NCBI GenBank assembly: GCA_905480475.1 | Contig: CAJQQO010000074.1 | Location: 1-40,540, forward strand | Source of the DNA: an uncultured Pseudomonadales bacterium | GTDB taxonomy: Bacteria > Pseudomonadota > Gammaproteobacteria > Pseudomonadales > UBA7434 | DNA: 40,540 bases | Reading direction: 5' to 3' | Part shown: piece after piece, positions 5,389-40,540 of the stretch | Layout: the number at the start of each line of letters is the position of its first letter | Numbering within the stretch: the first letter of the stretch is position 1 | The notes under the pieces: model-generated | The model's input: only the letters and a program-made list of their open reading frames with translations | Told to the model about the DNA's origin: nothing | Database searches by the model: none | Position numbers and translations under genes: made by a program

Positions 5389-5717
5389 TTGCTCAAACTT
5401 ACCACCACCACTTTGCTCTGCTTAATACCCCTTAGCTAGGCAGTCACAAACCACTCTCTATTTCTTATCGCTTGCTTACCATCATTCCTTATCAGTAATC
5501 TATTGAAGACCTGCAAGCTACTCAAGACTTACAACATAGCGTTTAGCATCATGTTCATTGTCGATGGCGCATTTGATACCTAATCGCTCACAACATTTAT
5601 AGGATAAGGCAAAGCTGAATCTTTTTGTCAGGTTTTAAGCGGCTAAGGCTATTGGAATGTCAGTCGATGAAGGCTACCTTAACGTCAATCGAAATAAGCA
5701 TCCCACCGGAGAGAATC

Positions 5718-6839
5718 ATGCAAACCAAATTATGTAAACAACTGGGCGTAGATGTACCCATTTTCGCCTTTACTCATTGTCGCGATGTGGTGGTTGAAGT
5801 GAGCAAAGCCGGTGGTATTGGCGTGTTGGGCGCTGTGGGTTTCTCGCCAGCGCAACTGAAAGAAGAGCTCGATTGGATTGACGAGCGCATTGGCGATCAT
5901 ATTTATGGCGTGGATACTGCGATTCCACAAAAGTATGAAGGTCAGGGCGAAAGCGATCCCGATAAATTAGTTGAAATGCTGCAAGCGGCAATTCCTGAGC
6001 AGCATCGCCAGTTTGCCGAAAAGCTTTTAAGCGATCACGGCGTACCAGCATGGCCCGAAGGCGATGACGAAGTCACTTTAAGCTTCTCACTCGCACAAGC
6101 ACAACTGTTAGTCGATGAAGCATTAACCCGGCCACAATGTCGCATGATCGTTAACGCACTTGGCACACCACCGCCAGAAATTGTAGAGCAGGTTCATAAG
6201 TCCGGCCGTTTAATTGGCGCACTCGCCGGTCGCTTAAAGCACGGTATCAATCATAAAAAAGCCGGTCTAGATTTTATTGTTTGCCAAGGCTCTGAAGGTG
6301 GCGGTCACGCTGGCGAAGTCACCTCAATGATCTTATGGCCACAAATGGTTGAAGCAGTTGCGCCACTGCCTGTATTAGCGGCAGGCGGTATTGGTAGCGG
6401 CAAACAAATTTTGGCCGCTATGAGTATGGGCGTAGAAGGTGTTTGGTTGGGCTCGATGTGGTTAAACGCAACCGAAGCTGCAGCCGAACCTGCACAACGC
6501 GACTCGTATATGAAAGCCAGTTCAGAGGATACCGTTCGATCGCGTTCATTTACTGGTAAAACAGCACGTATGTTAAAAAATGAATGGACCGAGGCGTGGG
6601 ATCGTGAAGATACGCCTGATCCACTGCCTATGCCTTTACAAGGTTATTTAACCTTTGATGCAACGCGCAGAACGCATCGCTATGCTGGCAGCGGCGAAAC
6701 GCAAAAAGTCGCTTTTAACCCTGTAGGGCAAGTGGTTGGGCAAATTAATCAAGTGGAGTCATGTAAGGATATTATGATGCGCTTAATGACCGAGTATAGC
6801 GAAGCGCTAGATCATATTACGGCAATTACGCCTGAGTAG
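5718..6839 (+). CDS. Nitronate monooxygenase / 2-nitropropane dioxygenase family
   Basis: MQTKLCKQLGVDVPIFAFTHCRDVVVEVSKAGGIGVLGAVGF...FIVCQGSEGGGHAGEV...VLAAGGIGSGKQILAAMSMGVEGVWLGS; GGAGAG upstream of ATG 5718. Confidence 0.9.
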   Translation: MQTKLCKQLGVDVPIFAFTHCRDVVVEVSKAGGIGVLGAVGFSPAQLKEELDWIDERIGDHIYGVDTAIPQKYEGQGESDPDKLVEMLQAAIPEQHRQFAEKLLSDHGVPAWPEGDDEVTLSFSLAQAQLLVDEALTRPQCRMIVNALGTPPPEIVEQVHKSGRLIGALAGRLKHGINHKKAGLDFIVCQGSEGGGHAGEVTSMILWPQMVEAVAPLPVLAAGGIGSGKQILAAMSMGVEGVWLGSMWLNATEAAAEPAQRDSYMKASSEDTVRSRSFTGKTARMLKNEWTEAWDREDTPDPLPMPLQGYLTFDATRRTHRYAGSGETQKVAFNPVGQVVGQINQVESCKDIMMRLMTEYSEALDHITAITPE

Positions 6840-22782: not shown

Positions 22783-23445
22783 TTAAGCGCTAGCACTCCG
22801 CTTTGAAATAGCGGCAATTAGATAAACAGCAACCGCAGAAACAAGGGCGACAGCAGCAGCCGGTATTAGATGATGGGTTAATCCATGATAAGCATCGTAC
22901 ATGCAAGCCACTTGCATCATTAACGCAGTGACCAATCCAGCCGACGCACCTGCGAGTAAACCGCTGGAAAAAGGTGTAAGCGTGTAACGCCTAAGCACTA
23001 GAACATTGAGAACAATACTCGCCGGCACACTGTAATAGAGCGCTTCAAAGTAGCATTGCGGTCGCTTGCCAGCCATTGATGGCTCCAGCGCTGGAACATA
23101 AAGCCCAAAACTAATATGGCCTATCCAACTTACAGTTACCGAGACAGTCAGCCAAAATATGGGGCGTGAAAGCGAACCCGGCACCGATGATTTAATTGCG
23201 CAGTAAGCCAGTAGTGAAACGGATAAAAAACCGAGTACGGTTTCAAGTGCAAAACGAGGTGTTGTTAATAACTGGGTAAGAACATTGTCGCGAAACGGCG
23301 CCAACCACCACATAAGACTTGCAAGTAATGGGATATAAATAAACAGCCACAGGGCAGTGACACGATTAGCAGATAAAACCGTACGCTGTTTATTTTCAAT
23401 ATCGCTGCTCAAGCTATCAATTAGCGATTGATGTTTACCGTTCAT
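22783..23445 (-). CDS. NrsF/DUF1109-like membrane anti-sigma factor
   Basis: About 6 TM helices after an N-terminal cytoplasmic segment; start overlaps the stop of the upstream sigma-factor gene by 4 nt. Confidence 0.8.
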   Translation of the reverse strand: MNGKHQSLIDSLSSDIENKQRTVLSANRVTALWLFIYIPLLASLMWWLAPFRDNVLTQLLTTPRFALETVLGFLSVSLLAYCAIKSSVPGSLSRPIFWLTVSVTVSWIGHISFGLYVPALEPSMAGKRPQCYFEALYYSVPASIVLNVLVLRRYTLTPFSSGLLAGASAGLVTALMMQVACMYDAYHGLTHHLIPAAAVALVSAVAVYLIAAISKRSASA

Positions 23446-24068
23446 ATAGCATCGGCCTCTAACAAAGCGCGAGTTTTAACAATAGCACGTCGCACATGCT
23501 GCTTTACCGCAGACTCGGAGATATCTAACATTTTTGCTGTGTCGCAAACACTAAAACCCATTAACTTGGTTAATACCATTGCCTTACCATAATGGATGGG
23601 CAAGAGGGATAGCAACTGGGATGTGAGTAATTGCTGCTCAACTTTATCATTGACCGCATAGCCACTGCTCATTGAATCACCGTTACTATCAACATCGGAT
23701 TCTAGCTCTGAGACATATTGGTTTTCTATTCGTTGGTTTTTACGTAAAGCATCAATGGTTTTATATTTAACTATCGCAAATAACCACGGTTTAAATGGTC
23801 GGCCAAATTGATAAGTGTGTCTGGCATGATGAATAGCGATTAAGGACTCTTGCACGCAATCATCAACAAACGCCATATATCCGAAGCGCTTGCGCAGGTA
23901 GGCGGTGATCGCGCTGGATAACTCTTGTAACAACACATTATACGCCTGACTATCGCCCGTATGCGCCAGCCGCATTAAATCGGCCCAACGCTGTTCGTCG
24001 TCAAGTACTTTAGCCATAGTAGAAAACCGTCGGCGATGCAAAGGCATCGCCGACGACCTGATGATCAA
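23442..24068 (-). CDS. ECF-type sigma-70 family RNA polymerase sigma factor
   Basis: Region 2 DDCVQESLIAIHHARHTYQFGRPFKPWLFAIVKYKTIDALRK; region 4 LLPIHYGKAMVLTKLMGFSVCDTAKMLDISESAVKQHVRRA. Confidence 0.93.
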   Translation of the reverse strand: MIIRSSAMPLHRRRFSTMAKVLDDEQRWADLMRLAHTGDSQAYNVLLQELSSAITAYLRKRFGYMAFVDDCVQESLIAIHHARHTYQFGRPFKPWLFAIVKYKTIDALRKNQRIENQYVSELESDVDSNGDSMSSGYAVNDKVEQQLLTSQLLSLLPIHYGKAMVLTKLMGFSVCDTAKMLDISESAVKQHVRRAIVKTRALLEADAI

Positions 24069-24128: not shown

Positions 24129-24812
24129 TTAGTAAACGCGTTTGACCACAACACGGGCTACTGGGTTCCGCCAATCATAGGTAAAAGGCTTAAGAATTTC
24201 GTTACCGGCTTCATCGGCATCACCTAAGTCATGAAAACCATTGCTAATATGGATAAAACCTTCATCACTGGCTAAGGGCTCGGGCGAATGACCTTCACCA
24301 CCACAACGTGGGCCGGGGATATTGATACACTTTTGATCATTGGCTTCGGTACCAGCATCATAGGCTTGTAAGTAAAACGTTTTAGAACCACGACGTGGCA
24401 AACCGCCAGAATTTAAAGCCACAAAAGTATCGTTAGTTGGAATTAACATCGCAGCAAGGCTGATACGACGAATATACGAGTTTGCTTCCAAAGTCATAGT
24501 TACCGACTTACCAGGCCCCAATAAACCGGGAATGGTTTGTATATCGGCTACCTTAGCGCCAGCACTTTGCAATAAAGCGGTGACATCAGCGGTGGAACCA
24601 CCCTCTGCCAACACTTCCAGCTCTGGACTTGCCGCATCGCCCACGGTAAATAAAGATACAGCACGCGAATGCGAGGTAATTAATTGCGGGGTAAAACTTT
24701 GCCCTTTAGTGATATTGGTAATGGTTACTTCGTAAAAACGCTTATAACCCTCTGCCGCAGCCATACTGCTGGCAGCACATAGACCAACGAATAATAGTAT
24801 TTTTTTGAACAT
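24129..24812 (-). CDS. Spondin-domain secreted protein
   Basis: Signal peptide MFKKILLFVGLCAASSMAAAEG then YEVTITNITKGQSFTPQLITSHSRAVSLFTVGDAASPELEVLAEGG. Confidence 0.88.
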   Translation of the reverse strand: MFKKILLFVGLCAASSMAAAEGYKRFYEVTITNITKGQSFTPQLITSHSRAVSLFTVGDAASPELEVLAEGGSTADVTALLQSAGAKVADIQTIPGLLGPGKSVTMTLEANSYIRRISLAAMLIPTNDTFVALNSGGLPRRGSKTFYLQAYDAGTEANDQKCINIPGPRCGGEGHSPEPLASDEGFIHISNGFHDLGDADEAGNEILKPFTYDWRNPVARVVVKRVY

Positions 24813-28948: not shown

Positions 28949-30055
28949 ATGAGTACAGAGACAATTTTTTCGGCCGACCTTGCTGGTATTGAGGTAGGCG
29001 AAACCGCGATATCCCACGTTAACGGCGCGGACGGCGAACTTGCTTATCGCGGCGCACCGATTGAAACATTGGTCGATAAACCTTTTTGGCAAGTGGTCTG
29101 GCTAGTGCTGTTTGGTGATTATCCTAATGCCAGTCAAGAAGACGCGCTGCGAATATTTATGGCTAACAACAGCAGCCTTAGCGAACAAGAGTTGGCCATA
29201 CTGAAATTGCTGCCCAATGATTTACACCCTATGTTGATGCTGCAAGCGATGGTGCCGATTATAAATTTAGACGCCGCTGATCGAATCGATGGACTTTCCA
29301 ACGACGCCCATAGCGGCCTTATCATTGCCAGCAAACTACCTTCACTGATCGCTGCCAAGCGCCAGTTTGAATTAGATAGAGACGCTATTGCTGTCGATAT
29401 AAATGAGAGCTTTCATACAAATTTTTTACTGATGTTTAACGACCAAGCGCCTACCGAAAAACAAATTCAAATGCTCGACACCGCACAAATCCTGCAAATG
29501 GAGCACGGCTTTAATGCCTCTACCTTTGCCGGTCGCGTTTGTGCCAGTACGCTTGCGCCGATTCAAAGTGCTATCACTGCATCAATCGCCACACTATACG
29601 GTGAGCTACATGGCGGCGCGGATCAAGCCGCATTGGAAATGGCGCAAGCCATTGGCAAACCAGAACTCGCCGCAGCCTATGTTGACGATTGTTTAGCGAA
29701 AAAAATTAAGATTATGGGCATGGGGCATCGCGAATATAAAGTACTTGATCCGCGTGCAAAAATTCTTAAACCGATGGCGCAGGAACTCTGTGATAGCGGC
29801 GATGCAAAAGCAATCTTCTCCACATTAGTTGCGGTAGAAGATGCCTGTCGCGAAGCCTTTAATAAAAAGGGCAAAGAAATAAGAGCGAATGTCGAGTTTT
29901 ATAAAGGCGCGGTGTTTTATCAGTTAGGCGTTCCATCGCACTACTTTACTAGTTTGTTTGCGATGGCAAGAGTGTACGGTTATATCGCGCACTATTTAGA
30001 GTTTAGCGGCAATAGTCGGTTGATTCGGCCTAAAGCAAGATATGTGGGTAAGTAG
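28949..30055 (+). CDS. Citrate synthase / 2-methylcitrate synthase
   Basis: GELAYRGAPIETL, ELHGGADQAALEMAQAIG, IMGMGHREYKVLDPRAKILK. Confidence 0.93.
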   Translation: MSTETIFSADLAGIEVGETAISHVNGADGELAYRGAPIETLVDKPFWQVVWLVLFGDYPNASQEDALRIFMANNSSLSEQELAILKLLPNDLHPMLMLQAMVPIINLDAADRIDGLSNDAHSGLIIASKLPSLIAAKRQFELDRDAIAVDINESFHTNFLLMFNDQAPTEKQIQMLDTAQILQMEHGFNASTFAGRVCASTLAPIQSAITASIATLYGELHGGADQAALEMAQAIGKPELAAAYVDDCLAKKIKIMGMGHREYKVLDPRAKILKPMAQELCDSGDAKAIFSTLVAVEDACREAFNKKGKEIRANVEFYKGAVFYQLGVPSHYFTSLFAMARVYGYIAHYLEFSGNSRLIRPKARYVGK

Positions 30056-33364: not shown

Positions 33365-34227
33365 TTATTCTTCATCGGCGGCTTGAATTCGCTCTAACCT
33401 TTCTTGCTCTTCTTCCATCGCTGCTTTGATTTCTTCTAATACCGAATCCACATTAGCGCTTTCGGTATCTTCTTCAAAGTAACCGGTTAATTCTGTTTCG
33501 GGCAGCAAGTCACCCTCTTGATATAAGGTCCATATTTCTTCGGCAAAATGGGTTTGTAATAACTGCGGTGCAAACAAGCCATAGTAGCGGCTCATATTAT
33601 TTACATCGCGCGCCAACATCGCTTCTGCCGAGTTATTAGCTGCCGCATTAACCGCTTGCGGTAAATCAATAATAACCGGGCCGTTTTCATCGACCAGCAC
33701 ATTAAACTCTGACAAGTCGCCATGGATAAGACCGGCACATAACATCCGCACCACGTAGCGCATCATAATTGCGTGATCTTCTAGCGCCTGCTCTTCAGAC
33801 ATGGTGACATCATCAAGTCTTGGCGCGGCGGCACCGTCTTCATCAACGATCAGCTCCATTAGCAATACACCGTCAATACACCCGAAGGTCTCGGGCACAC
33901 GCACATCGGCTCTAGCTAACTTACTTAAGGCATCCACCTCGGCGTTTTCCAAATTTCTTCTTGCTGCGCACGACCATAGGTCGAGCCTTTCTCTACCGCA
34001 CGAGCACGTCGGCCGCTGCGCATCTTACGACCTTCTTGATACTGAGCGGCTTTTTTAAAACTGCGTTTTGCGGCATCTTTATAGACCTTGGCGCAACGAA
34101 TAGCATCGCCACAACGGACAATAAACACATCAGCTTCTTTACCACTCATTAGGCGACTAAGCACTTCATCAACTAGCCCATCGTCGACCAAGGGCTGGAT
34201 TCGCTTTGGAACTTTCATAACATCCAA
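33365..34227 (-). pseudogene. RIO-type serine protein kinase, split into two frames by a single-base frameshift
   Basis: 34227-33925 encodes KRIQPLVDDGLVDEVLSRLMSGKEADVFIVRCGDAIRCAKVYKD...EEIWKTPRWMP*; 33952-33365 continues in another frame NAEVDALSKLARADVRVPETFG...AGLIHGDLSEFNVLVDENGPVIIDLPQAV. Adding one A at tgg-AAAA-cgcc restores a continuous RIO domain. Confidence 0.85.
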
Positions 34228-34446: not shown

Positions 34447-35187
34447 TTAATCGTAACTAACATCAAATGCGCCGGTAGCTTTTAGCTGACGCTTTTCTGG
34501 CTGACCGTAAACCACTAAATCGCCAGCACCTAATACCCTCCCAGAAATCGAAGCATTGGCGGTCAGTACGATATCAGAACTTCCTTGCGACTCAATATTG
34601 ACATGCTTGCAACGCAGCTTTTCCATATCCAAATCGTTGGCTCCACGTATATCAAGTTTACAGTTATTTGCCGTGCCTCTAACCGAAACATCAGCGCTAC
34701 CGCGCATTGATAATTCAAAGCGGGTACTTTGAATGCCACTAAAACGCGCTTCTTGCGAGCCGCGCAACAAAACCTCTTCTAATTGACTACCCGACAACTC
34801 AATCTTAACGCGCTGATTGGTTCCAAAGCCCTCACTGTTAATTAGCAAGCGACCACCTCGCACCTGATACGTTAACGAATCCAATACCGACTGCGTTGCT
34901 GAAATTTTTATTTTAGCGTCTCTACCACCGCGGTAAATAATCTCGGCCGGCACACGAATATCCAATTTACTATAGTTGGCCAGCGTTCGCTCTTGATCAA
35001 TAACAACTCTATCGCTAAACGCTGAGTTATCATCAGTTTTATTGGACTTATAACTGCCAACATTTAATTGATTAACATTACCTAACTCATCTTGCTCGAT
35101 TAGCTCTAACGCTGCGCATAAACCAGAGCCAACTAACATGATTAGTGGTGCGACCAAGGCCCTGAGTTTTTTTGTTGCTGTTATCAT
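34447..35187 (-). CDS. Head GIN domain (DUF2807) protein
   Basis: Exported; YSKLDIRVPAEIIYRGGRDAKIKISATQSVLDSLTYQVRGGRLLI...VSVRGTANNCKLDIRGANDL. ATG 35187 has GGAAAAG upstream. Confidence 0.85.
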   Translation of the reverse strand: MITATKKLRALVAPLIMLVGSGLCAALELIEQDELGNVNQLNVGSYKSNKTDDNSAFSDRVVIDQERTLANYSKLDIRVPAEIIYRGGRDAKIKISATQSVLDSLTYQVRGGRLLINSEGFGTNQRVKIELSGSQLEEVLLRGSQEARFSGIQSTRFELSMRGSADVSVRGTANNCKLDIRGANDLDMEKLRCKHVNIESQGSSDIVLTANASISGRVLGAGDLVVYGQPEKRQLKATGAFDVSYD

Positions 35188-35418
35188 AATTCTTTTCCGG
35201 TTGAGGCAGATGATTAAGCCCATACTTTGCACCCAGCAAACGTTTTTCGCGCACGAGGTTTAAGCGGGCTTTATATCTGCCTTACACAACCTCCGCCAAA
35301 ATTTTTCTGGCACTACAACGCAATGGGTACAATTTAATTTTTAATATCCTTACTTTTAAACCTTCCGCTACATTCGTGATGCAAAATCTTTTCACTCACG
35401 ATATCTAAACAGTATTAG

Positions 35419-35982
35419 TTACTCGGCAATAATGCTTACACGACGATTCACACCACTATTGGGATTATCACCATCTAGCAATTGTGATTCACCTCGACCT
35501 TGGGCGATAACCCGAGTCGGCTCTACAGAATATTCGTTAACAAAGAAGTTCATAACCGCTCTTGCGCGCTGCTCCGACAAGCTTAGGTTGTAGTTATCAT
35601 CGCCAGCCGCGTCGGTATGCCCTTCTAATGTAAAGGCTAACTCTGCTAGCTCATTTGATTGCAGTGCTTCGCCTACAGGACTTAACTGCGCCTTGGCGGC
35701 GGCGGTTAGCTTGGCAGAATCAAAATCAAAATAAACCTCAAGTGATAAACCACGCGGTGCAGACGTTTGCGCAGCTAGTGATTCTGCCGGTTGATTTTTT
35801 AATCGAATACCGCGAGTCAGTGGCTGACCGCTAACACCGTTTGGCGACAATAAATTAATCACCTGCTCTTTGCTCACCTCTTTACCTAAGTGAACGGTAT
35901 CGGCTGACTCAGCGATAGCAAGCGTGCTTAGTGCACAGCAAGTGCTTAATGCGATGGCTTTGATTAATGCTTTCATGTTCAT
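35419..35982 (-). CDS. OmpA family protein
   Basis: Signal peptide; LEVYFDFDSAKLTAAAKAQLSPVGEALQ...LEGHTDAAGDDNYNLSLSEQRARAVMNFF...RVIAQGRGES...NRRVSI. Confidence 0.94.
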   Translation of the reverse strand: MNMKALIKAIALSTCCALSTLAIAESADTVHLGKEVSKEQVINLLSPNGVSGQPLTRGIRLKNQPAESLAAQTSAPRGLSLEVYFDFDSAKLTAAAKAQLSPVGEALQSNELAELAFTLEGHTDAAGDDNYNLSLSEQRARAVMNFFVNEYSVEPTRVIAQGRGESQLLDGDNPNSGVNRRVSIIAE

Positions 35983-36061
35983 GATGTTCTCCGTTTGGTA
36001 CTGGCTGCTAATTGAATAGCTCGTGCAATTGTTTGCGTATTAGTTAATAAATGGGTTTGGT

Positions 36062-36421
36062 TTAAATCTTTTCGTATAAGCAAGTCGCTGTGCCTACATC
36101 AATTAAATACAGCTCGCGATCTTTGCTTGATCCATCATCCTCAAAAACCATAATGCCGTTTTTATCATTGAGTTTTTTGTTTTTCAAATGCGTTTGTTCG
36201 AACAACAATTCTCCTTCCTGCCAGCAACGTAAGTTTGAAGTGTCACGTGCTGTTTGTCGTTCGGGCTGCGCTTCAACGATTTGCTGCTGACGTTCGGCTT
36301 GCGGTGCACTAGTGCTTACTTCTGCACTTGCAAGCTTGGTACCTGCGGCCAATGCCGTAACGCTAGTGACAATGGCCAGTGAAACACTTAATAAACTGAC
36401 GGTAGAAGATTTGCGACTCAT
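36062..36421 (-). CDS. Exported hypothetical protein
   Basis: Signal-peptide-like N-terminus, LRCWQEGELLFEQTHL...CLYEKI; 12 nt downstream of the CsgG-like gene. Confidence 0.7.
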   Translation of the reverse strand: MSRKSSTVSLLSVSLAIVTSVTALAAGTKLASAEVSTSAPQAERQQQIVEAQPERQTARDTSNLRCWQEGELLFEQTHLKNKKLNDKNGIMVFEDDGSSKDRELYLIDVGTATCLYEKI

Positions 36422-36433
36422 TTTGTATAACTC

Positions 36434-37990
36434 CTAGTTAACCTGTATTTGGAAGCTAGCTTCAGCTAGGCTGCCGTTACTTGCGGCGCGAAAGCCTTCC
36501 CGCACTTCGTTAACTGATTTGACGGACAAAGTTTCAAAGTCGTACGCTCTTATTTTATTTGGTAGCTGATGATAGACATTTTTAGGCGTCGCAAAGCAAG
36601 TGATCGACTCACCTGATACATCAGCAGTTATATCAAACGGCATATTGCCAGGCAGAGTTACCGAGTTGCCATAAGGTATAAAGTTATCGGACTGAAAGCG
36701 ATTAGGGAAAAATCTTTGCACCGTGTTGTCAGTATCGACAAAGTAGCAATACACATAGGCCGAAGTATTACTGCTCGCTAACAATGAGATAGCCGCGCCC
36801 CGTTTAAAGCTTTGACTGCCACTCGCCGTACGCAGATTTAGCGATAAGTTCTGCGGCTGGGTTTGCTCAACCATAACTGGTGTTGGCTTACTGCTTGGCT
36901 TAGGTGCTGTTTTAGGCGCGTCTTCGATATTGGCCGAGAACACAATGTCCGGGCGTTTAAGCGCGCTAACATCTCTGCCTTTTAGTAATAGTTGGAAAAA
37001 GCTGTAGTTAAGCTTGCCATCAACACTTTCGCCTGAGGCTTGTTGATAGTTACGAATGCCTTGCGATAAGGCTCTACCAGCATTGGGTTCAGACATTGGG
37101 TATAAACCGCGAGCGATAAGTCTTGAGCGCACAAACGGCTGTAATTCACCGTGGGCATTCATCGCGTAATACCAGTCTTCAATTTCTCGCTGAATTTCAG
37201 GGCTGCTGTTAGGAATACCTACACACTGCCAGTAAGGGACTTTAACCAGCTTACCGATTAACTCAATACTGGCTAACTCAATTAGATTTCTAAGCGCCTG
37301 CACAGTTGCTTCACTTTTTGATACTTGAAAGTCAAAGCTGATGCCGGTTTTTTTAATCGTTGCATCAGCGTCACCGCCTTTGCCGGATTTGAATAAGATT
37401 ACCGAGTTACTAGAGGTCACACCTGGAAGCACCGATAAATCTTCAGTAGTCAGAACGCTTAAATCAATCCCTAATATCGAACCTGCAGTACTCTGTGATG
37501 CGCCCGCACCCCATTTGCCAGCAGCTACTGATGCGCCAAGCTGTTTACGTACTACGCTGCTATCAAGCTGTGAAATCGAACCGCGAATATCGTACTTAGG
37601 CACAACGTTATAAGCTGAGTTTGCGCCTGCTGCACCTAGAAAAGAAATAAGGTTACCGGAATCATTACCAAAGGGAATCAACTTAACTGCGCGACTGCGG
37701 CGAGTCATTTTAGAAACTGCGGTAATCAGCATATCTTTAGTACCGGCGTTGACCTTGGAAGTTTGATCTTCCAAATCTTCAACCAGCATAGAGATATCAC
37801 TAATACCGTATTCAATCATCATGTTATCCATGCAACGCAGTCCATCAGAAAAATTGGTGATGGACTTATGTGGCGTTGCCGATGGACCTGTTTGCGCTTT
37901 CTTGACCTCATTGTGCACCGCTTCTTGCGTTGCGCAAGACATCAACGCAAAACACGCGATGCTTGTTAACAGTTTCTTGTTGATAGCCAT
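36434..37990 (-). CDS. CsgG/HfaB-like lipoprotein with peptidoglycan-binding-like and DUF4384-like C-terminal regions
   Basis: Lipobox LMSC; N-terminal CsgG-like RAVKLIPFGNDSGNL...YDIRGSISQLDSSVVRKQLGASVAAGKWGAGASQS...ILGIDLSVLTTEDLSVLPGVTSSNSVILFKSGKGGDADA; middle RALSQGIRNYQQASGESVDGKLNYSFFQLLL; C-terminal GAAISLLASSNTSAYVYCYFVDTDNTVQRFFPNRFQSDNFIPYG. Confidence 0.8.
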   Translation of the reverse strand: MAINKKLLTSIACFALMSCATQEAVHNEVKKAQTGPSATPHKSITNFSDGLRCMDNMMIEYGISDISMLVEDLEDQTSKVNAGTKDMLITAVSKMTRRSRAVKLIPFGNDSGNLISFLGAAGANSAYNVVPKYDIRGSISQLDSSVVRKQLGASVAAGKWGAGASQSTAGSILGIDLSVLTTEDLSVLPGVTSSNSVILFKSGKGGDADATIKKTGISFDFQVSKSEATVQALRNLIELASIELIGKLVKVPYWQCVGIPNSSPEIQREIEDWYYAMNAHGELQPFVRSRLIARGLYPMSEPNAGRALSQGIRNYQQASGESVDGKLNYSFFQLLLKGRDVSALKRPDIVFSANIEDAPKTAPKPSSKPTPVMVEQTQPQNLSLNLRTASGSQSFKRGAAISLLASSNTSAYVYCYFVDTDNTVQRFFPNRFQSDNFIPYGNSVTLPGNMPFDITADVSGESITCFATPKNVYHQLPNKIRAYDFETLSVKSVNEVREGFRAASNGSLAEASFQIQVN

Positions 37991-38021
37991 TCTGATATTA
38001 CTCCCCGTTAAAATAAGTGTT

Positions 38022-38339
38022 CTATCGACACTTGTTGTTGGCGTTGATTACGTCGCCTTTGATGATGACAACATTGTCGACGTTTCTACCGCCACCTTGT
38101 ACGTTGCCGATGTCTACACTTCCGCAAGAAGCATCTTGATTCTTTTTCGCCGCAGCACGTTCTTCTGGCGTCATATTCGCTTCGCGCGCTCTTTGCTTGG
38201 CGGTGTACTTTTGTACTTTTGCATTTGAATCATCTTCCATAAAGTCACCATCTTCGCCCCAAATATCGTCGGCTTGAGCCAACGGGCTAAGCAAAAATAG
38301 TGCCGCTGAAATCATGATTAAGCTTTGTTGGATTTTCAT
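38022..38339 (-). CDS. Small secreted protein of unknown function
   Basis: Signal peptide MKIQQSLIMISAALFLLSPLAQADD; C-terminal CGSVDIGNVQGGGRNVDNVVIIKGDVINANNKCR. Confidence 0.75.
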   Translation of the reverse strand: MKIQQSLIMISAALFLLSPLAQADDIWGEDGDFMEDDSNAKVQKYTAKQRAREANMTPEERAAAKKNQDASCGSVDIGNVQGGGRNVDNVVIIKGDVINANNKCR

Positions 38340-38477
38340 TTTGATGATCCTTTGCTGTCTGCTTATTGGATAGAGATAAAAGTTTTGTTTAAGTGACTAT
38401 CCAATGGGTTGAATTAAATATGCCGGGAGGGACTGGTTAAGCGACTGGCTTTACCAGCCGCCCCCGGGCATGAATCA

Positions 38478-38771
38478 TTAGTCAGTAACTGAACCAATGT
38501 TGACTTCATTTTTGTTAGCGATACCGGTGTTTTTCTGGATTACCGCACCGGTTTTAACGTTGATTTTTACGTCGCCGCCAATGTCAGTGCTTTTGCCAGT
38601 AACCGAACCTAGGTTAGCTTCGTTTTTGTTTGCAATACCTGTGTTGCCTTGCAAAATAACGCCTGTTTTAACGTTGGTTTTAACATCGCCGCCCACGTCT
38701 GCGGCTTGAGCTACGCTCATCCCCATGGCAAGTACGCTAGCAACTGCAGTAGTGATAATGATTTTCTTCAT
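38478..38771 (-). CDS. Small secreted two-repeat protein, candidate surface polymer subunit
   Basis: ATG 38771 with GAGGAG upstream; signal peptide MKKIIITTAVASVLAMGMSVAQA; two 38-residue-period repeats. Confidence 0.85.
   Translation of the reverse strand: MKKIIITTAVASVLAMGMSVAQAADVGGDVKTNVKTGVILQGNTGIANKNEANLGSVTGKSTDIGGDVKINVKTGAVIQKNTGIANKNEVNIGSVTD
38481..38699 (-). repeat. Tandem protein-coding repeat, two units, period 38 aa (114 bp)
   Basis: DVGGDVKTNVKTGVILQGNTGIANKNEANLGSVTGKST / DIGGDVKINVKTGAVIQKNTGIANKNEVNIGSVTD. Confidence 0.9.
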
Positions 38772-39190
38772 TGTGATACTCCTCATTTAGTCAATTAATG
38801 TCCTAAAAACGATTAGCAAAGCTCGCATCCATCGCCGGACACTTGTATTAGAAGGCCAACAGCAGCTTTTTGAAACCGATTTTTTTAAAAAACATCGAAA
38901 ATTGTCAAACGTACACTTATTTGTATGAATAAGTGCTTAAAAAGTGAGCATGTGTGTAGAATATGCTTTTGCTAAGTGACTGCAATTGCAGGAAAAATAG
39001 CTGAATATCCCTCTTGCTAAGTGTAAACTTGGTTTTTTATACATTTGCGTCACTATTGTTGCGCGTTAGGCTGATTATTAAGTAAGAGCCTAACTGCTCA
39101 GCCAACAAGCAGACGAAGATAGTTGCCGGTTAAATTGCCAGCGAGATTTGCCGCTTGAACAATTTATGCCGTGCTTTGCCAATATACGGT

Positions 39191-39236
39191 ACAAAGCCTA
39201 TTAACATGACATGGCCTACATGCAGTACATAGCCTA
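39191..39236 (+). repeat. Three direct repeats of ACAWRGCCTA at exact 18-bp spacing
   Basis: acaaagccta (39191), acatggccta (39209), acatagccta (39227), just upstream of the sigma-factor ORF. Confidence 0.75.
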
Positions 39237-39253
39237 TAAAAAGGAACGAAGTT

Positions 39254-40159
39254 TTGGTTGAAAGCAATTCCAGCGCTATCGATTGGCCAATGTTGGTGTT
39301 TGATCCGCAGTTTATGGCAACACTAGATAAGCTTGCCGCTAGACGCTTTGGCGCTGGCGGGCTAGCCGAAGAAGCGACCACCCATGTCATTGAGTACCTT
39401 TCCGATAACGACTGGGGCAAATGCGCCTCGTTTCAGGGTAAATCCAAACCTTCTACCTTCCTTTATACGCTGGCAAATAATGCGATTGAAGAGTTCTCTC
39501 GCAAGCGTTTTGGCCGCCCTAGGCCACCGGTTTGGCTGCAAGATTTAGGCGAGTTATGGGTAAAACTATGGCGTAGCCTTTGCCTGGAACGCCAGCTATT
39601 ACCTGCACTGGTTGACCGGTTCTCCGACAATGGCTTTCGCGAGCCTGAGCAAGTCACCCAAGCCGCCAAGGTTATCAAAGCCCGTATCCCCAATTGTGGA
39701 CAGAGCTCGATGGATAGCCTTGCAGTTGATGATATTGATGCCGTCAGTGATGCAGCCCAATCGACTACTGAATCCATAGACAATAGTGGTAATGAGAGCG
39801 TCGAGCTGGAGTTTGAAAACCCATTTCACGCCGAATTGATCATGATGGTAAGAGCGGTGGTTGACGATGATATCTGCTGCTCCAGCTTTGCTGACGAGGA
39901 GCTTGATAAAACCGATAGCGTCGCCGGTAACTTATTGAATAATTTAGATAACTTGCGAAACTCGCTAAGTTTGAGTGATGAAGAGCGGGTGATGCTTAAA
40001 ATGATATATGTAGAGGGGTTATCCAAAACCGCCACCTCAAAAGCGCTGGGAATGCAGGCTCATCAAGCCGGTCGTATCGTTAATGACGCACTGGAGCGCA
40101 TTGGTGCCGGAATCCGTACATGCGGTATTGATCTCGAAGAATTGCTGGAGTTGGTGTGA
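39254..40159 (+). CDS. Divergent sigma-70 family sigma factor with a long inter-domain insertion (start uncertain)
   Basis: Region 2-like RRFGAGGLAEEATTHVIEYLSDNDWGKCASFQGKSKPSTFLYTLANNAIEEFSRKRFGRPRPP; region 4-like LSDEERVMLKMIYVEGLSKTATSKALGMQAHQAGRIVNDALERI. Confidence 0.75.
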   Translation: MVESNSSAIDWPMLVFDPQFMATLDKLAARRFGAGGLAEEATTHVIEYLSDNDWGKCASFQGKSKPSTFLYTLANNAIEEFSRKRFGRPRPPVWLQDLGELWVKLWRSLCLERQLLPALVDRFSDNGFREPEQVTQAAKVIKARIPNCGQSSMDSLAVDDIDAVSDAAQSTTESIDNSGNESVELEFENPFHAELIMMVRAVVDDDICCSSFADEELDKTDSVAGNLLNNLDNLRNSLSLSDEERVMLKMIYVEGLSKTATSKALGMQAHQAGRIVNDALERIGAGIRTCGIDLEELLELV

Positions 40160-40220
40160 TGTCTGTACAGTTTTGGCATATTGTCCATCTTATAGATTGT
40201 AGTCACTGGTATGGAGTCGA

Positions 40221-40540
40221 ATGCCTATGAAAAATCAATCTAATGAAAAAGAATCAAAGCTGGATAAAGCAGCTGCACTGTTAGCACTGGGGCTTAGCCA
40301 GTCAAAAGCCGATAACGCCACATTTGCCGCCCCGAGCGACGAAGAGCTGGCCGCTATGCTCGAAGGTAAACTCGATACCACTCGCCGCGCCCAAATTATG
40401 GATAGCATGGCGAATGATAGCGAAACCTTTGCGCGCTGGATGGCGCTAGTTGAAACCGCCGATACGTTAGGCCTTGAGAGTTTTGCTCAGGCTGAAGCCG
40501 TAACGACACCCGGCTTTTTTGCCAGCATTGCAGAGTCGTT
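40221..40540 (+). CDS. Putative anti-sigma factor N-terminus, truncated by the window's right edge
   Basis: In-frame ATGs at 40221/40227, open to the end: MKNQSNEKESKLDKAAALLALGLSQ...APSDEELAAMLEGKLDTTRRAQIMDSMANDSETFARWMALVETAD, the usual short anti-sigma helical N-terminus; directly follows the sigma gene. Confidence 0.55.
   Translation, partial: MPMKNQSNEKESKLDKAAALLALGLSQSKADNATFAAPSDEELAAMLEGKLDTTRRAQIMDSMANDSETFARWMALVETADTLGLESFAQAEAVTTPGFFASIAES

Follow-up and report, generated by a model that had tools for sequence, protein, structure and literature searches.

A candidate secretion-and-assembly locus of the CsgG/HfaB superfamily, accompanied by a sigma/anti-sigma pair, in an uncultured Pseudomonadales bacterium

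We analysed a 40,540-nucleotide stretch of DNA from an uncultured Pseudomonadales bacterium (GenBank assembly GCA_905480475.1, contig CAJQQO010000074.1, hereafter contig C74; the whole stretch is referred to as the window), and focused on a cluster of six minus-strand genes with a divergent sigma/anti-sigma pair at positions 34447-40540. This locus probably encodes a dedicated outer-membrane secretion-and-assembly system, which belongs to the CsgG/HfaB superfamily and represents a branch apart from curli and the holdfast anchor. Five observations carry this assignment: which genes make up the set, how widely they are conserved together, a lipoprotein model with a CsgG-type fold, the repeat architecture of small secreted proteins and a promoter motif. 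The initial annotation of this DNA had proposed a dedicated secretion system for a fibre-like protein. The fold and the co-occurrence of the genes speak for that proposal, while the export route and polymerisation stand as inference.

The six genes are arranged on the minus strand, in order of transcription, as follows: a secreted two-repeat protein of 97 amino acids (38478-38771), a small secreted protein of 105 amino acids (38022-38339), a CsgG/HfaB-superfamily outer-membrane lipoprotein of 518 amino acids (36434-37990), an exported 119-amino-acid protein of an unnamed family (36062-36421), an OmpA-family protein with a signal peptide, a putative peptidoglycan tether (35419-35982; PF00691, E = 3e-21), and an exported DUF2807 (head GIN) protein (34447-35187; PF10988, E = 1e-25). 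Signal peptides and lipoboxes at the locus were assigned by eye. On the plus strand, the gene for an ECF-like sigma factor of 301 amino acids, in which a long linker separates regions 2 and 4 (39254-40159), is followed by the N-terminal part of an anti-sigma gene (40221-40540), which is cut by the contig end. Its C-terminal half opens another contig of the same genome (C96; L025:2-481). We join C74 to C96 because the anti-sigma gene is split between them, with a gap of ~35 residues as judged by eye against the protein of an Oleiphilus metagenome-assembled genome (locus L004). Downstream of the anti-sigma half, C96 carries three paralogues of the repeat gene (L025:980, 2306 and 5675), together with genes for an autotransporter-domain protein (PF03797, E = 8e-55), a hydrolase-like protein and a caspase/Sel1 protein. 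All open reading frames named in the initial annotation were recovered at the same coordinates and strands; its gene set started too narrowly, as the DUF2807 gene also belongs to the cluster. A search of 11 same-genus genomes yielded neither the CsgG-like gene nor the sigma gene. Horizontal transfer or misbinning of the locus was considered and rejected, as its GC content is the same as that of the flank.

The fold predicted for the 36434-37990 product is of the CsgG type. In a Foldseek search with the AlphaFold model, the top 20 PDB matches were all CsgG (best E = 4e-6), so that the earlier call of a CsgG-like lipoprotein survived this check. Length-normalised TM-scores on CsgG were modest (0.36-0.48), as is expected for a single protomer with badly modelled hairpins. 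Profile alignment (hhalign) linked the family both to Escherichia coli CsgG (E = 2e-4) and, within this genome, to a protein of the HfaB type (E = 6e-7), and the family is about equally close to HfaB and CsgG. Both membrane-hairpin regions of CsgG, a nonameric pore with a 36-stranded barrel, align at similar length with the window protein, which by inspection also bears a lipoprotein signal, and its CsgG domain is followed by a PG_binding_1-like domain and DUF4384. The lipoprotein is proposed to act as an export pore. In a tree of the superfamily, 27 rows including the window protein formed one group and the CsgG, HfaB-type and own-genome CsgG rows the other (support 97/97), several of the branches being long and their joins unsure. 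The constriction loop of CsgG (C-loop, residues 47-58, with Y51, N55 and F56; PMC9245180) is absent from the alignment of the window protein and most of its clade. The aligned stretch comprises 26 residues in these proteins, compared with 38 in CsgG and 34-37 in HfaB-type proteins, and a side branch (L040, L041, L104 and L112) retains 33-34. The same genome possesses a second CsgG-superfamily locus (L044, contig C248, 4773-7730), in which the gene for an HfaB-type lipoprotein (CsgG, E = 2e-9; HfaB, E = 7e-26, itself under the strict cut-off of that model) is flanked by those for exported N/S/T-rich proteins of 201 and 348 amino acids with no family match.

The 38478-38771 product consists of two 38-amino-acid repeats, as 26 residues are identical at lag 38 (P <= 1e-4 relative to shuffled sequences), which confirms the two-repeat secreted protein described at the outset. 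The unit is rich in Gly, Asn, Thr, Val and Lys and devoid of Cys and aromatic residues. Each unit contains the positions Q-x-N-x-G-I-A-N-K-N and G-S-V, which hardly vary among the four paralogues of this genome and the three Oleiphilus proteins. The three paralogues on C96, just beyond the window end, are 63-65% identical to the window protein; two of them (L025:980-1270 and 5675-5965) have identical protein sequences and near-identical upstream regions, which suggests a recent duplication. A 19-amino-acid half-unit within the repeat was significant in only about half of the proteins. The AlphaFold model displays two strand-turn-strand units (pLDDT 73-87 per ten-residue block from residue 31 onward, the mature part), and is compatible with a β-solenoid or an amyloid. 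By analogy with known systems, the repeat proteins are probably exported via the CsgG-like protein and would polymerise into a fibre or coat on the cell surface. A profile search of the PDB with the repeat family yielded nothing relevant, and kinship of the repeats to HfaD was rejected (hhalign probability 1%).

Two further small proteins of the locus show their own conserved signatures. The 38022-38339 product has a conserved N-terminal segment (D-x-M-D-x-x-S-x-A-K-V), and its C-terminus holds a single repeat-like unit between two cysteines (C..IGNV...VV..GDVIN..C). Both cysteines lie within the last 35 residues and are nearly invariant in an alignment of 14 loci; this protein is proposed to act as a coupler or nucleator. 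In the 36062-36421 product, which is encoded by a single copy in this genome, the signature L-x-C-W-Q-x-G ... C stands out, with L, C, W, Q, G and the second C invariant over 10 aligned loci (hereafter the LxCWQ protein). No Pfam or NCBIfam family was matched by the repeat, the two-cysteine or the LxCWQ protein. As for the last gene of the cluster, a DUF2807 homologue occupies the matching position in the Oleiphilus locus, and others lie near the CsgG gene in L040, L041, L094 and L109.

The gene set is conserved far beyond this genome. The Oleiphilus locus keeps the order repeat, two-cysteine, CsgG-like, LxCWQ, OmpA and DUF2807 genes with the sigma/anti-sigma pair divergent, its CsgG-like protein being 65% identical to the window counterpart in the best segment, and continues with two more repeat genes, an autotransporter gene and a hydrolase gene. 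When 399 genomes across the phylum were searched with a profile of the CsgG-like domain, 29 gave a match, about 19 at E < 1e-19. Hfa-type loci are among the weak matches, for example L111, which has HfaA (E = 2e-39); L110 is possibly of the Hfa type too (HfaD, E = 1.5e-6, below the cut-off). The core gene set recurs at about 29 loci across Pseudomonadota, in many families in part. Among the 29 loci of the clade, counted by hand with L140 and L141 included, the neighbours comprise an OmpA gene in 22, the two-cysteine protein in 19, the repeat protein (by profile) in 16 and the LxCWQ protein in 12, counts that are biased upward by loci which also served to build the profiles. Matches beyond the training rows were obtained for the two-cysteine protein at L095, L100 and L101 and for the repeat protein at L093 and L108, and none of the repeat, two-cysteine and LxCWQ families occurred at any of 15 comparison loci. 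Carriers known by name include Azospirillum lipoferum 4B and A. ramasamyi, whose plasmids hold the genes under the labels hypothetical, DUF4384 or OmpA. Hence the conserved co-occurrence of these genes, on which the initial annotation depended, holds in distant genomes. We also noticed a distant third variant (L016:2714-4772), in which a two-cysteine protein of 123 amino acids and a repeat protein (VKIKN...VGEKAK...GVVIG) precede the CsgG-like lipoprotein. At another locus (L014:569-6333), the CsgG-like gene adjoins, as judged by eye, genes for a filamentous-haemagglutinin-like protein and a two-partner-secretion (FhaC-like) protein.

The sigma factor has sigma-70 regions 2 and 4 (TIGR02937, E = 5e-7, under the curated cut-off) and an adjacent putative membrane anti-sigma factor, in agreement with the initial annotation. 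An anti-sigma relative follows the sigma gene at eight homologous loci (L004, L055-L057 and L059-L062); these relatives share a conserved N-terminal domain, and most of the full-length ones have a transmembrane-like segment. Among 392 genomes in the order, seven, this one counted, have a match to the sigma factor, and in every pair examined the anti-sigma-like gene comes next. The pair is tied to the CsgG locus only in the two closest genomes, namely this one and the Oleiphilus genome. The A. ramasamyi locus has an ECF sigma-70/zf-HC2 pair of its own alongside, which the sigma profile missed. In addition, a promoter-like motif, KTTCRR-N15-CN-TCTA, was present upstream of seven of seven repeat genes (four here and three in Oleiphilus), ending 77-111 base pairs (bp) ahead of the start codons. 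Its copy in the window, TTTCAA-N15-CTTCTA (38849-38875, minus strand), lies 77 bp upstream of the repeat gene. The Oleiphilus anti-sigma gene has a site, left out of the derivation of the motif, that matches at 11 of 11 positions 32 bp before the gene, and the chance expectation from Markov shuffles is 0.03-0.14 matches per locus. The copy before the window anti-sigma gene (40165-40191, plus strand) matches at 9 of 11 positions, a score that 13% of random 250-bp stretches reach, and is weak on its own. Regulation by the adjacent sigma factor, as first proposed, gains from this element being shared by subunit and anti-sigma genes; judged from sequence, the neighbouring sigma factor probably reads it. 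In various genomes, sigma/anti-sigma pairs, DUF4384 proteins and caspase-domain (C14) proteins recur in varied combinations (L017, L018, L025, L039, L055, L058 and L061), and in L017 and L018 the sigma, anti-sigma, caspase and DUF4384 genes appear to be grouped closely (partly by eye).

Several results weigh against a secretion system of the CsgG type. The initial annotation suggested searching for two families in the lipoprotein; DUF4384 is clear (PF14326, E = 2e-14), but CsgG (PF03783) scored 17.2 bits, under the Pfam cut-off of 20.8. The AlphaFold model is of moderate quality (mean pLDDT 71.5, pTM 0.53), with a pLDDT of 26-42 in the first membrane-hairpin region, and PelC, FlgT and HpaA, which are ABD-fold lipoproteins without protein secretion, match only somewhat worse than CsgG in Foldseek. 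Most relatives of the sigma factor have neighbours other than CsgG, in several cases caspase-domain genes, and the sigma/anti-sigma pair is therefore best seen as a reusable module. The promoter motif occurs 25 times genome-wide against 27 in a reversed control and is not enriched, so that only its local clustering counts; a genome-wide regulon was rejected on these counts, and no further members can be claimed. For the repeat protein, Foldseek found no significant relative in the PDB (E > 3), and the CsgA motif (Q-X10-Q, N-X-psi-X-psi-X-Q) was not found in the 38-amino-acid repeat.

Some of these points would fit an envelope-stress module, in which the CsgG-like and OmpA proteins act in the periplasm as a tether or sensor, the repeat proteins stay soluble there under sigma control, and there is no export across the outer membrane. 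Pore-less ABD-fold proteins such as PelC and FlgT match the model, the CsgG constriction loop is missing, and the same sigma family stands elsewhere beside caspase-domain genes. Nevertheless, CsgG ranks above PelC and FlgT, both hairpin regions keep their length, and two-cysteine repeat-like proteins beside a CsgG-type gene resemble secreted nucleators; we regard such a module as quite improbable. It is still harder to credit that the repeat proteins are β-solenoids of a surface-binding or ice-binding type, acting as single molecules without polymerisation. The weak Foldseek matches do include ice-binding β-helices and bactofilin, but none is significant and the same list contains the HET-s and FapC amyloids; an ice-binding TxT ladder was not seen by eye, no scan having been made for one. 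Somewhat more credible, albeit unlikely, is that the locus anchors a surface polysaccharide in the manner of Caulobacter HfaABD, with the repeat and two-cysteine proteins forming a short pore-bound surface complex that holds the polymer instead of long fibres. The closeness of the CsgG-like family to HfaB, the shortness of the subunits (two repeats) and a PelG-like gene ~4.5 kilobases from a related locus (L097, by eye) agree with this idea, as does HfaA, which is amyloid-like and HfaB-dependent (PMC6707917). On the other hand, the surroundings of the window locus showed no genes for polysaccharide synthesis, and the presence of four paralogous subunit genes, all preceded by a promoter motif, points to production in bulk.

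Returning to a secretion-and-assembly system, we infer a pore, export, polymerisation, promoter recognition by the sigma factor and a coupler, which could operate together as follows. The sigma factor, held by the membrane anti-sigma factor, would be freed on an envelope signal and use KTTCRR-N15-CN-TCTA promoters to transcribe the main operon and the subunit genes, as well as the anti-sigma gene, which would generate negative feedback. The repeat proteins would pass the inner membrane by Sec and the outer membrane via the oligomeric pore of the CsgG-like lipoprotein, and their strand-turn-strand units may then stack into a β-rich surface fibre or coat. The two-cysteine protein, which ends in what looks like one repeat unit, might sit at the pore as a coupler or nucleator, while the PG_binding_1 and OmpA domains would anchor the complex to peptidoglycan.

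We found no paper in the open-access literature that joins CsgG with DUF4384, and none of the DUF4384 papers concerns secretion as far as titles and abstracts tell; the export system is thus undescribed as far as could be found. If our interpretation is correct, many Pseudomonadota carry a surface-polymer system that escapes curli and Fap surveys, as its subunits have no match to CsgA or FapC. A recent survey (PMC12822426) tallies the operons of curli and Fap. A CsgG-type pore without a constriction loop would also be of interest for the gating of amyloid secretion and for nanopore work, and the sigma/anti-sigma pair would appear to control subunit genes directly.

Elsewhere in the window, a RIO-kinase gene (33365-34227) is apparently split into overlapping frames (33365-33952 and 33925-34227), possibly by a frameshift or an assembly error. 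A gene for an NrsF-type negative sigma regulator (22783-23445; PF06532, E = 5e-8) lies beside an open reading frame of 208 amino acids (23442-24068), which could encode its sigma factor, and a Spondin_N protein is encoded at 24129-24812. The citrate synthase C-terminal-domain protein at 28949-30055 is about 31% identical to same-genus homologues and 54% identical to one in another family. As the genome holds a second citrate synthase copy of the usual same-genus type, the value of 31% says little about the contig.

Among known systems, Fap of Pseudomonas (FapA-F) resembles the locus in having a secreted subunit with imperfect 30-40-amino-acid repeats and conserved Asn/Gln. In contrast to Fap, no FapF-type gene was recognised at the locus, where the proposed export partner is CsgG-like; the repeat-family profiles matched no FapC chain in the PDB and the structural match to FapC was non-significant. 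By the tests possible, the locus does not appear to be Fap. PelC, the lipoprotein of Pel polysaccharide export, shares the ABD-type fold (Foldseek, E = 1.5e-3) but scores below CsgG, and no pel genes were recognised at the window locus. Curli (CsgBAC/CsgDEFG; type VIII, extracellular nucleation-precipitation) likewise place a CsgG-fold outer-membrane lipoprotein beside small secreted repeat proteins. The window protein differs in its additional PG_binding_1 and DUF4384 domains, the 38-amino-acid repeat is of another kind, and a sigma/anti-sigma pair stands where curli have CsgD. Genome searches with the curlin-repeat (CsgA/CsgB, PF07012) and CsgF (PF10614) families were empty, consistent with the initial annotation, and no match was obtained in 17 and 18, respectively, of the 19 genomes with the system; CsgE had no match among the locus proteins, which that search covered. 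We conclude that the locus is not curli, as (i) neither curlin nor CsgF is matched in the genome and (ii) the constriction loop is absent. Caulobacter HfaA/HfaB/HfaD similarly combine an HfaB-type lipoprotein with secreted small proteins. The locus is not Hfa either, because the CsgG-like protein, a member of a separate clade, lies far below the cut-off of the HfaB NCBIfam model (E = 4e-4; 19.6 bits, cut-off 300) and the subunit proteins match neither HfaA nor HfaD. The expression 'curli/holdfast-anchor-like' in the initial annotation is right as a working analogy, which the CsgG fold and the gene co-occurrence justify, and the locus falls outside both families. It is attractive to speculate, with some reserve, that a third CsgG-superfamily secretion-assembly system exists beside curli and Hfa and is widespread in Pseudomonadota, with a pore that has no built-in constriction and is perhaps gated by a disulfide-bounded single-repeat coupler, and with a subunit supply under a dedicated sigma/anti-sigma pair that could monitor assembly at the envelope.

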